From: Vasconcelosia minhoensis LEGE 07310
Lineage (GTDB): Bacteria; Cyanobacteriota; Cyanobacteriia; Phormidesmidales; Phormidesmidaceae
Assembly: GCF_015207255.1 (NCBI RefSeq)
Contig: NZ_JADEXG010000055.1
Span: forward strand, 1 to 37,651
Length of the DNA stretch: 37,651 nt
Direction of reading: 5' to 3'
The translations under genes were made by a program, and so were the position numbers. Under the pieces are notes generated by a model. That model was not told the DNA's origin. It saw only the letters and a list, made by a program, of their open reading frames with translations, and did no database searches. This document shows, in pieces, positions 26,777-31,205 of this stretch (positions are counted from its first letter, which is position 1; every line of letters starts with the position of its first letter).

Positions 26777-29700
26777 CTAATGGTTAATCAGCCTGGCGAC
26801 GACGGCGACCACGTCATCTAGGCTGACCGGCTTGGCCAGGTGATGCTGAAAACCAGCGGCGAGGATGTCCTGGGCTTCGGCTTCGGCCGCGAAAGCGGTG
26901 AGGGCGATCGCGGGCATCTCCCCCCCTTGCTCAGCCGGACGCGATCTCACCCACCTGACCAGCTCCAGGCCGTTCATATGGGGCATGCCCACATCGCTGA
27001 TTAGCAGATCGGGCGGCTGCGCTTCGATTTGCGCCATCGCCGCCGCCGCCGAGTTAGCGGTGACGACAGTCGCCCCCTGGGTTTCCAAAACGAAGGTCAG
27101 CGGGTCCAGGTTGCTCTCCTGGTCATCGACCAGCAGCAGCCGCAGCCCGGTCAGGCAATCGCGGCCGGGATCGGGCGGCGCGGCGGCGGGCTCAGCCGGG
27201 GTATTGGCCACCACCAGCGGCAGGCTGACGATGAATGTCGCCCCCTGGCCCTCGCCATCGCTGGCGGCAGCGACCGTGCCGTTGTGGGCTTCGACCAGGT
27301 AGCGGACAATTGCCAGGCCCAGCCCCAGACCGCCGTAGCTGCGAGTCGTTGAGCTGTCGTCCTGACGGAAGCGGTCAAAAATGTAGGGCAGCATGTCGGC
27401 GCTGATCCCCTTGCCGCTGTCGGCGACCTGAATCTGAATCACCGTCTGGCTATAGGTCAGCTGCACCGCCACCTGGCCGCCCTCTGGGGTGAACTTGATC
27501 GCATTGGTCAGGAGGTTCAAAAACACCTGCTGGAGCCGTTCAGCGTCGGCTAGGATGCTGGCCGGGGCCGGGGCTAAATTGGCTTCCAACCGAATCTGCT
27601 TGCGTTCAGCGTCGGGCTGGAGCGTCTCAATCACCGACTGCATCACCCGGGTCAGGTTGGTCGGGTGCATCGTCAGCTGCAGCTTGCCCTGAATGATCCG
27701 CGACAGGTCGAGCAGGTCTTCGATCAGCCGGGCCTGGCTGCGAGCGCCGCGCTGGATCGCCTCTAGCGCCCGGGTCAGCACCTCTGGCTTTGGCGGCCGC
27801 CGCAGCAGAATGTCGGACCAGCCGAGAATGCTGTTGAGCGGCGTCCGCAGCTCGTGGGAGAGCATCGAGAGAAATTCGTTTTTGCGAATGTTTTCGGCTT
27901 CGGCCTCGGCCTGGGCCTGCCGGGCTAGCAGCAGCCGGGTGCGCTCGGCCTCGGCCTGCTTGCGATCGCTAATATCCTCAATCGCCAGCAATATTTTGCG
28001 ACCCTCATTGCCCTGGGTAAACTCCCGCGCGTTCAGCAGCATGGTTCTAGGTCCGATTGACTCAAAGTCATGCTCAATTTCAAAGTCTTGCAGCTCGACC
28101 TGGTCGGGGAGGATATCTTCCAGGCGCGATCGCAAGTCTTGAATGTCCCACTGACCGTTGCCCAGCTCAAGAATTAGCCGCCCTTCGGTCTCCTCGGGCG
28201 ACACCTGGAACGTGTCATAAAAGGCCCGATTGACGCTCAGCACTTGCAGCTCGGTATTGAGCACCAGCAGCGGCTGCCGCACCGTTTCGACGATGCTTTC
28301 GGCATAGTCGCGGGCGACTTCAAGCCGGGCCTGGGTGCGCTTCAGATCGTCGATATCGACCAGCGCCAGCACCGCGCCGTCGATCTGGTTTTCCATGGTC
28401 TTGTAGGGTCGAACCCGCAGCAGGTGCCAGCGGCCTTCTCGATCCTGCACTTCTCGATCCTGCACCGTCAGGCTATCGATCACCCCCATGATCAGGTCTT
28501 CCAGATCGGGCAGGTCAATATTCAGCCGGATATGGCTAATCGGTCGGCCCACGTCGGACGAAATCAGGTTAAAAATTCTCTGGGCGGCGGGCGTAAACCG
28601 GCGGATGCCCAGATCGCTGGAGAGCATCAGGATGGGGATATTAACATTGCTGAGCAGATTGAGCAGATCGTCGTTAATCAGCCGGGCTTCCTGGTTGCGG
28701 CTGTGAAGTTCTTCATTGGTCGTCTTCAGCTCTTCGTTCGCCGCCTGAATTTCTTCCTTGGCCGTTTGCAGCTCTTCGTTAATGCTCTGCAGCTCTTCGT
28801 TGCTGGATAGAATCTCCTCGTTCGCCGTCGTCAGGCTCTGGTTCGTCGCCTCCTGGTCCTCAATCGTCGTTTGCAGATGGGCCTGGGTATCCAGCAGCTC
28901 CTGCTTGGCCTCGGCCAGCTCCCGTCGCAGCTGCATGATTTCAGGCTGCGCTTCGGGGGGGGTGGGGTCAGCGGCGCGCTCCTCAGCCGGCGGTGCGATT
29001 GGGGAAAACAGAACCAGCAGATAGGGCTCCTCAGCCTCGGGCAGACTGAAGGGAATCACCTCAATGCTGACGTGATCCAGTAGCGCGCTGCCTTCTCGCT
29101 GCTTGGTCTGAGTTGCCGAATCCCCTCGCCGCCGGGCCTGGTTGATCGCGGTGCGCACCTCCAGCAGCAGCTCTGGGCGAATCATCTTGAGCAGGTTGAA
29201 GCTGGGCTCTCCCGCTGCCGGTCGGAGATAGGCGCTGGTGTCGCCGCGAAACTGCAAAATGTCCAGGCTGTGATTCACCACGACCCCGTCTGGTGCATAC
29301 TGGCGGAGGATAATCTGATCCGCCTGCTGCTTCACATTCAGCTCATTCCGAACATTCGCCGCCTCGCTGGGCTTGGTTGCGACCATCAGATGGTCGCTAG
29401 AGATATAGTCAAAACTCAGGCCAGAGGAGATGGCCGCGCGGCTGTAGAGCCGATGCTGTTTATCGACCACCCGAAACAGGTCGGACGCCTCGCCGATGCT
29501 CTCAGACCGGCCCAGCAGCAAAAAACCAGTCGGGTTCAGGCTGTAGTGAAAGATCGGCAGCACCCGCTTCTGCAAGACTGAGGCAAAGTAAATTAGCACG
29601 TTGCGGCAGCTGACCAGGTCTAGATTCGAAAAAGGCGGATCGCTGATCAGGTTTTGCCGGGCAAAAACGCACATCTCCCGCACCGATCGATTCACCTGAT

Positions 29701-30898
29701 AGCCGCTTTCCACTTCGACAAAAAAGCGGCGGCGGCGCTCAGCTGAGACCGGAGTCATGTGGCTCTCGGCATAGATGCCAGTGCGGGCTTTATCGATCGC
29801 GACATCGCTGATGTCAGTGCCAAAGATTTGAATATTCGGCTTCACCCGCTGGGTGGCCAGCAGTTCCAGCAGGCAAATCGCAATGGAGTAGCACTCTTCC
29901 CCAGTGGCACAGCCCGCCACCCAGACCCGAATGGTTGAGTCAGCCGACTTTTCATTCAGAATTCTGGGCAAGACCTGATCGCTCAGGGCGGCGAAGGTGT
30001 CGGCATCGCGAAAGAAGCTGGTCACCGTCAGTAGAACGTCCTGATAAAGCGCCTGTAGCTCCTCTGGGTGATTTTCCACATAGGCAACGTAGTCTTCTAG
30101 CGCTTCCAGCTTATACAGGGCCATCCGCCGTCTGAGCCGACGGCTGAAGGTGTTGTGCTTGTAGTGGGTGAAGTCTACGCCAGTCGCCCGCAGCAGCAGG
30201 CCAAAGACAGCGTTCAGAGGGGCCACCCGAGTCGCGCCAGCAGCCGGAGTCTCCGCCGCTTGCGGCGGAGACTCCGGCTGCTGCACATAGGGATGCTGGC
30301 TAATCCGCACCAGCTCTCTGGCAATTTCCACTGGCGGCAGGATAAAGTCAACGTCGCCCGTCGCCGCTGCCGTATTGGGCATCTGGCTAAACTGGGCCGT
30401 GCCTTCGCACTGCGCCATGGTAATCCCGCCCGCCGCCCGAATCGCCTTCAGACCCAGCGCCCCGTCGCCGTTGCTGCCCGACAGGACGATGCCAATGGCG
30501 CTGCTGTCCCAGGTCTTGGCCAGGGAGTGAAAAAAATGGTCAATCGGCATAAACTGCCCCGGCCTGATATTGCGCGCCTCGACCTGAAACCGCTCCCGCT
30601 CAGCGTCGATTGTGATCTGGGTATCCGGCGCGATCACATAGACGCAGTTGGGCGCGATCGCCATGCCGTCGGTGATCTCATTCACCGGCATAGTTGTCTG
30701 GTTAGCCAGCAGCTCGGTCAGCAGGCTGTGACGATCGGGCGCTAAATGCTGAATCAGCACAAAGGCCATCCCCATATTGGTCGGTAGCTGGCTGAGCAGC
30801 TCTGAGGTCGGCTTTAGCCCGCCAGCAGAGGCCCCAATGCCGACAATGGGATAGCGATCGCGAGACTCCGAGGACTGCTGGGCAGGCGGATTGGCCAT
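26777..30898 (-). CDS. CheB/CheR-PAS-histidine kinase-receiver hybrid
   Basis: This is a 1373-residue hybrid sensor. Domains in order: CheB methylesterase (about 15-195; GIGASAGG, LIQHLAPD, VLSGSNGDGALG hold the Ser-His-Asp triad); CheR methyltransferase (about 228-490; NTFSRRLRRRMAL, the SAM motif VAGCATGEECYS, SCRNVLIYF); a long coiled coil (about 636-740); two PAS domains (about 745-985); HisKA with the phosphoacceptor in FLSMLSHELRTPLN (about 1005-1020); HATPase_c (about 1115-1230; NLLTNAIKF, DSGKGIS, GGLGLGLAI); and a receiver (about 1257-1370; VDDQESN, SDVGMPHMNG). Such proteins integrate sensory input without a classical chemotaxis array; no MCP is adjacent. A 46-base perfect palindrome encodes the CheB-CheR linker. 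Another 45-base palindrome lies six bases before the ATG, and no clear Shine-Dalgarno is visible. Confidence 0.93.
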   Translation of the reverse strand: MANPPAQQSSESRDRYPIVGIGASAGGLKPTSELLSQLPTNMGMAFVLIQHLAPDRHSLLTELLANQTTMPVNEITDGMAIAPNCVYVIAPDTQITIDAERERFQVEARNIRPGQFMPIDHFFHSLAKTWDSSAIGIVLSGSNGDGALGLKAIRAAGGITMAQCEGTAQFSQMPNTAAATGDVDFILPPVEIARELVRISQHPYVQQPESPPQAAETPAAGATRVAPLNAVFGLLLRATGVDFTHYKHNTFSRRLRRRMALYKLEALEDYVAYVENHPEELQALYQDVLLTVTSFFRDADTFAALSDQVLPRILNEKSADSTIRVWVAGCATGEECYSIAICLLELLATQRVKPNIQIFGTDISDVAIDKARTGIYAESHMTPVSAERRRRFFVEVESGYQVNRSVREMCVFARQNLISDPPFSNLDLVSCRNVLIYFASVLQKRVLPIFHYSLNPTGFLLLGRSESIGEASDLFRVVDKQHRLYSRAAISSGLSFDYISSDHLMVATKPSEAANVRNELNVKQQADQIILRQYAPDGVVVNHSLDILQFRGDTSAYLRPAAGEPSFNLLKMIRPELLLEVRTAINQARRRGDSATQTKQREGSALLDHVSIEVIPFSLPEAEEPYLLVLFSPIAPPAEERAADPTPPEAQPEIMQLRRELAEAKQELLDTQAHLQTTIEDQEATNQSLTTANEEILSSNEELQSINEELQTAKEEIQAANEELKTTNEELHSRNQEARLINDDLLNLLSNVNIPILMLSSDLGIRRFTPAAQRIFNLISSDVGRPISHIRLNIDLPDLEDLIMGVIDSLTVQDREVQDREGRWHLLRVRPYKTMENQIDGAVLALVDIDDLKRTQARLEVARDYAESIVETVRQPLLVLNTELQVLSVNRAFYDTFQVSPEETEGRLILELGNGQWDIQDLRSRLEDILPDQVELQDFEIEHDFESIGPRTMLLNAREFTQGNEGRKILLAIEDISDRKQAEAERTRLLLARQAQAEAEAENIRKNEFLSMLSHELRTPLNSILGWSDILLRRPPKPEVLTRALEAIQRGARSQARLIEDLLDLSRIIQGKLQLTMHPTNLTRVMQSVIETLQPDAERKQIRLEANLAPAPASILADAERLQQVFLNLLTNAIKFTPEGGQVAVQLTYSQTVIQIQVADSGKGISADMLPYIFDRFRQDDSSTTRSYGGLGLGLAIVRYLVEAHNGTVAAASDGEGQGATFIVSLPLVVANTPAEPAAAPPDPGRDCLTGLRLLLVDDQESNLDPLTFVLETQGATVVTANSAAAAMAQIEAQPPDLLISDVGMPHMNGLELVRWVRSRPAEQGGEMPAIALTAFAAEAEAQDILAAGFQHHLAKPVSLDDVVAVVARLINH
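30238..30283. repeat. 46-base perfect palindrome inside the CheB/CheR hybrid gene
   Basis: Two perfectly complementary 22-base arms (30238-30259 and 30262-30283) flank a TT loop. In the coding frame it encodes a linker of about 15 residues (QQPESPPQAAETPAA) between the CheB and CheR domains, so the frame and both domains are intact. Confidence 0.9.
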
Positions 30899-31205
30899 GT
30901 ATTACATCAGTGCTAGGCTTAACCTTGAAGGTTAAGCCTAGCACTGATGCTGAGATATCCTGCTCATTGTATCCTGCTCATGAGTAGAAGTTTCAACTGA
31001 AGGCTTCTAGGTCTGATCGGCAGATTTATCATGATTGTTTTTAGCTAAATTTTTATCTGGCGAAACTAAAATTGAGTGAGCAGTTATACCGCATGAAAGC
31101 CGCCCATGAGCCATTTTTTGACGGCCAATTCAGAACCATCCGATTACATCTTAATTAAAATAATTGCTGAGCTGCTCCAAATTTGACTACCCCTCGGATA
31201 AAAGC
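30899..31205. other. Intergenic region between the hybrid kinase and Uma2 remnant
   Basis: Besides the palindrome at 30905-30949 this 307-base spacer is A/T-rich and holds no gene that I can support. Promoters for both flanking genes presumably lie here. Confidence 0.35.
30905..30949. repeat. 45-base perfect palindrome before the hybrid kinase start
   Basis: Two 22-base arms (30905-30926 and 30928-30949) are perfectly complementary around one base. The element begins six bases before the start codon of the CheB/CheR hybrid, so in mRNA it would form a very stable hairpin at the ribosome entry site. Its core contains CTTAACCT and its inverse AGGTTAAG three bases apart. Confidence 0.9.

Follow-up and report, generated by a model that had tools for sequence, protein, structure and literature searches.

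A palindrome at the start of a CheB-CheR-kinase gene

The window, by which we mean the whole stretch of 37,651 nucleotides that was analysed, carries on its minus strand a gene whose product has the Pfam domain order CheB, CheR, PAS, HisKA, HATPase, receiver (Table 1). The ATG of this gene lies at 30898-30896, and a perfect palindrome ends six bases 5' of it. The earlier note had placed the palindrome six bases from the ATG and given it 22-nt arms and a 1-nt loop, and all of this is borne out by the sequence at 30905-30949. Its further statement that the palindrome replaces a ribosome binding site is misleading: a Shine-Dalgarno-like word was present in 0 of the 17 gene starts examined (relatives of the CheB-CheR-kinase gene and the paralogue described below), so that none was replaced by the hairpin. 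The hairpin was also considered as an in-frame peptide code and rejected as such, an in-frame TAA being located between the stem and the ATG in the window copy.

Table 1. Positions of the palindromes, their parts and the associated gene in the window
Feature	Position	Strand	Remarks
Perfect palindrome, candidate leader hairpin	30905..30949	-	22-bp stem, 1-nt loop (C on gene strand)
Palindrome arms	30905-30926 and 30928-30949		22 nt each, 100% complementary, 1 nt between
Core GGCTTAACCTTCAAGGTTAAGCC	30916..30938	-	same in the paralogue's leader; only two genome sites at up to 3 mismatches
Compensated pairs, 5' side	30939..30943	-	30943, 30941 and 30939 in + strand numbering
Compensated pairs, 3' side	30911..30915	-	positions 30911, 30913 and 30915
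Linker from stem to ATG	30899..30904	-	six bases, TAATAC on gene strand; without Shine-Dalgarno
CheB methylesterase - CheR methyltransferase - PAS - histidine kinase - receiver gene	26777..30898	-	1373 aa
Second perfect palindrome	30238-30283		22-nt arms, loop 2; in variable CheB-CheR linker coding sequence

Matching hairpins before two diverged paralogues

The genome holds one close paralogue of the CheB-CheR-kinase gene, 70% identical over the whole length and located on contig C54. A perfect hairpin with 20-nt arms and a 1-nt loop lies 10 bases 5' of the ATG of this paralogue. On the gene strand the window copy of the hairpin reads CATCAGTGCTAGGCTTAACCTT-C-AAGGTTAAGCCTAGCACTGATG and the paralogue copy reads TCAGGGTTGGGCTTAACCTT-C-AAGGTTAAGCCCAACCCTGA, with the central 23 bases, GGCTTAACCTT-C-AAGGTTAAGCC, identical in both. 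All pairs in both stems are Watson-Crick. When the 20 pairs shared by the two stems were compared, 17 were unchanged, three were altered on both sides and none was broken; the two-sided changes between the leaders are A-U/G-C, C-G/U-A and U-A/G-C, with no G-U pair and no mismatch. The three altered pairs fall within five positions, and the stem-loops are identical at 35 of 41 bases, all six differences being confined to the three restored pairs. Sliding the partners by 1-3 columns left 10-55% of cells paired and produced no two-sided change. In 59 of 500 column shuffles the observed values were attained, a test that is weak with two sequences. The two genes share an alignable block of 64 columns that starts shortly 5' of the stem, extends to the ATG and runs in one direction in both. 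Compensatory changes are present at the matching place before homologous genes, in 3 of 20 pairs and between two sequences only.

The sequence around the hairpin has diverged far more. Fourfold-degenerate sites of the two paralogues are 50% identical overall and 39% identical in the first 200 codons, and an identity of 32% is expected at such sites from composition. Judged by these values, the two CheB-CheR-kinase genes are old copies whose synonymous sites are close to saturation. The DNA further upstream than the hairpin no longer aligns significantly between the two genes (best local score 24, shuffle maximum 27). The coding sequences diverge straight after the ATG, and since divergence starts right at this codon, a recent gene conversion across the gene start seems unlikely. 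Against fourfold sites at 39-50% identity and an unalignable upstream region the hairpin stands out as retained. We conclude that the hairpin at the start of this duplicated signalling gene is real, is not a product of chance and has been retained.

Long palindromes in the genome and occurrence of the core

Palindromes were counted in 2.01 Mb of the 5.26-Mb, cyanobacterium-like genome (loci L002-L038 and L059-L138), allowing loops of up to 12 and using an arm cut-off of 12. This sample contains 25 perfect hairpins with arms of at least 15 and 8 with arms of at least 20. A control generated from this sequence by a first-order Markov model gave no arm above 13, so the palindrome at 30905-30949 is not a product of chance. 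Arm lengths of the perfect hairpins in the sample are continuous from the cut-off of 12 up to 24, and equal arm length is therefore not the mark of a class; perfect palindromes are a general feature of this genome. The earlier note had held that two palindromes of equal arm length in one gene are unlikely by chance and may form one mobile class. Equal length as a class mark does not stand; the genome search gave long perfect hairpins in numbers far above chance and of variable arm length. The two palindromes of the gene have no sequence in common. That at 30238-30283 is located within the variable linker. The paralogue lacks it, with a different linker in the protein alignment and no such palindrome in locus L079, and thus the two palindromes are of different kinds.

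By a rough gene caller, the long hairpins of the genome sit inside genes, at gene 3' ends or near starts. Perfect ones number 18 in the sample versus 9 with one or two mismatches, an excess that suggests recent origin or active correction. Arm-to-arm scores among the other palindromes, leaving aside the hairpin pair of the two paralogues, are 7-10 at best, and a kinship of the arms at 30905-30949 with palindromes in L031 (score 8) and L029 (score 7) was discarded because these scores do not rise above the background seen between other palindromes. Among the palindromes near starts are an AT-rich perfect one with 22-nt arms (L031:2626-2670), 35 nt 5' of an ATG whose gene by eye resembles class I fructose-bisphosphate aldolase, and a perfect one with 16-nt arms (L093:12630-12661), which lies 34 nt 5' of an ATG, is followed by a good Shine-Dalgarno and precedes a gene that by eye resembles a small mechanosensitive channel.

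At up to 3 mismatches the core has no third site in the genome, both sites being starts of the duplicated gene. It was not found in 58 relatives at up to 3 mismatches, nor in 387 other genomes sampled from the class at up to 2 mismatches. No viral contig contains a somewhat shortened, loop-tolerant version of the core. Among genome contigs a long pattern had no match, and the shortened one has seven matches, in Tepidibacter, Tepidanaerobacter, Acinetobacter, Vibrio and Marinomonas, all of them distant organisms and not cyanobacteria. About 1.6 are expected by our own estimate; despite this small excess we took the matches to be unrelated. No comparable hairpin was found before homologues in other genera of the family, which are mostly 52-59% identical over the CheB-CheR part. 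Two weak RNA-model matches in the family (E 0.003 and 0.02) were also rejected, with other core sequences and no CheB-like gene seen directly behind. No Rfam family matched above its gathering threshold in the window or in the stretch carrying the paralogue. As far as the genomes examined show, all of them from other genera, the hairpin is specific to this lineage. With the core present twice in this genome and absent from the 58 relatives and 387 class genomes, a mobile class of equal-arm palindromes is unsupported. The other option raised for this palindrome, control of translation, is favoured, since both paralogues have kept the hairpin ahead of their start codons and three of its pairs have changed in a compensated way.

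A candidate leader stem-loop and its alternatives

The hairpin is most likely a leader stem-loop, which is a known kind of element. The predicted RNA stem energy is -39.6 kcal/mol for the window copy and -36.8 kcal/mol for the paralogue, and the whole leaders compared with shuffles give z = -7.0 and -5.7, respectively. We propose, with confidence about evenly divided, that the palindrome is the 5' leader stem-loop of the CheB-CheR-kinase message, that both copies received it through a gene duplication within this lineage and that both have kept it. Its probable role is that of a control structure preserved in the two messages, as opposed to a mobile element. We infer that the hairpin acts as RNA, that it is part of the transcript and that it keeps ribosomes off the start.

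The region 6-10 bases 5' of an ATG is normally covered by the ribosome. Both stems end at this distance, inside the usual ribosome footprint, and would block ribosome entry; with no Shine-Dalgarno to help, translation would remain low for as long as the stem is neither opened nor cut. As A-form RNA, a stem of 20-22 bp makes roughly two helical turns. RNase III cuts duplexes of this kind, and cutting by this enzyme might free the start, a step that is a guess. The genome has two canonical RNase III genes, both above the family cut-off. Many of the E. coli substrates of RNase III are also cut by the cyanobacterial enzymes (PMC10989914), and the E. coli adhE leader, in the passage of PMC5371410 that cites Aristarkhov et al. 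1996, has a structure hiding the ribosome binding site that is cut by RNase III; together with the two genes, this makes RNase III a reasonable candidate. As adhE is portrayed in that passage, it resembles the present case in that a strong secondary structure lies where translation of one gene begins, and in being a possible RNase III substrate. It differs in that a ribosome binding site is hidden there and no Shine-Dalgarno exists here, while the element described here is a single perfect 20-22-bp stem known from sequence alone.

Several observations weigh against the hairpin acting as leader RNA. Only two sequences carry it and the covariation amounts to three pairs, for which one template-switch event could be the source. 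The absence of G-U pairs fits DNA somewhat better than RNA. Homologues in other genera lack the hairpin, and it matches no Rfam family. Scanning either gene gave no sigma-70-like promoter, such scans being weak evidence, and the place of the hairpin in the transcript is the main uncertainty.

A DNA-level role would be that of an operator, in which the dyad core GGCTTAACCTT-C-AAGGTTAAGCC, overlapping the start region, is where a dimeric transcription factor binds to regulate the two paralogues; in one variant the paralogues are autoregulated through the dyad core. The core sequence itself, beyond its pairing, is identical in both genes, the exclusively Watson-Crick pairs make the site symmetric on both DNA strands, and the site sits at gene starts, all of which an operator would explain. 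Yet a protein site does not need the perfect complementarity seen in the changing outer 9-11 bases of each arm, and an operator whose end lies 6-10 nt from the ATG is uncommon, except for a message with almost no leader. The lack of a third site in the genome at up to 3 mismatches also speaks against an operator with a regulon, but a site specific to the two genes is still compatible with it. We regard the operator as a possible but doubtful explanation. It is unlikely, in our judgement, that the stem has no function and is upheld by mutation, the palindrome having arisen once before the duplication and template switching (quasipalindrome correction) keeping its arms matched thereafter. Template switching makes perfect stems in one event as well as multi-base compensatory changes (PMC8794818). 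It would account for the absence of G-U pairs, and the clustering of the three altered pairs within five positions is explicable by one event; the many unrelated long perfect hairpins of the genome, with their excess of perfect over mismatched stems (18 and 9), point in the same direction. However, this process keeps arms alike and does not keep their sequence, yet the loop and 17 of 20 pairs have stayed as they were where fourfold sites are 39-50% identical and the other upstream DNA does not align significantly, and it leaves the kept closeness to both ATGs unexplained. Compared with the template-switch-maintained RNA hairpins of Monttinen and Loytynoja 2022 (PMC8794818), the present hairpin has the same perfect stem and clustered two-sided changes without G-U intermediates, but it differs in the conservation of its core sequence, for which the mutational process creates no need. 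A combined origin, in which template switching supplies the changes and selection keeps the stem, is quite possible.

An intrinsic terminator or attenuator in the leader would fit the very stable stem and the TTTT that follows it in the paralogue, but no T run follows the stem of the window copy and a terminator scan finds nothing at either stem, which makes this highly improbable. The chance is slimmer still that a mobile palindromic element, either REP/MITE-like or of an in-gene palindromic class, was inserted here and in the linker of the gene. Two long perfect palindromes in one gene and many in the genome would be in keeping with such an element, and REP and MITE elements are likewise palindromic and intergenic. 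They differ from the present case, in which there is no dispersed family and the only two copies, which occupy equivalent positions in the duplicated genes, were apparently inherited with the gene. In addition, the other palindromes form no sequence family (best arm-to-arm scores 7-10), and the core is found in 0 of 387 other class genomes and in no viral contig.

If the reading as a leader stem-loop is right, the hairpin would be an undescribed leader element that controls the CheB-CheR-kinase fusion pair. It would also provide a clean natural case for separating selection on a perfect stem from template-switch maintenance, since the copies came near synonymous saturation while the stem stayed perfect. 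The covariation between the paralogues is the part that deserves specialist attention. Because the identical core is self-complementary, it is conceivable that the leaders of both messages pair with each other in a 23-bp duplex by which the copies sense each other's abundance, for example through RNase III cutting. We consider this a long shot; if true, two duplicated receptor-modification kinases would be linked by a leader element acting in cis and in trans.

The leaders have two other features of note. Directly upstream of the window hairpin TATCCTGCTCAT (ATGAGCAGGATA on the gene strand) occurs in tandem at 30957-30968 and 30970-30981, and this pair is missing from the leader of the paralogue. 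In the latter (L079:9690-9770), AAAATCAGGG lies slightly upstream of the hairpin and is complementary to CCCTGATTTT at the hairpin's end, a possible alternative pairing.
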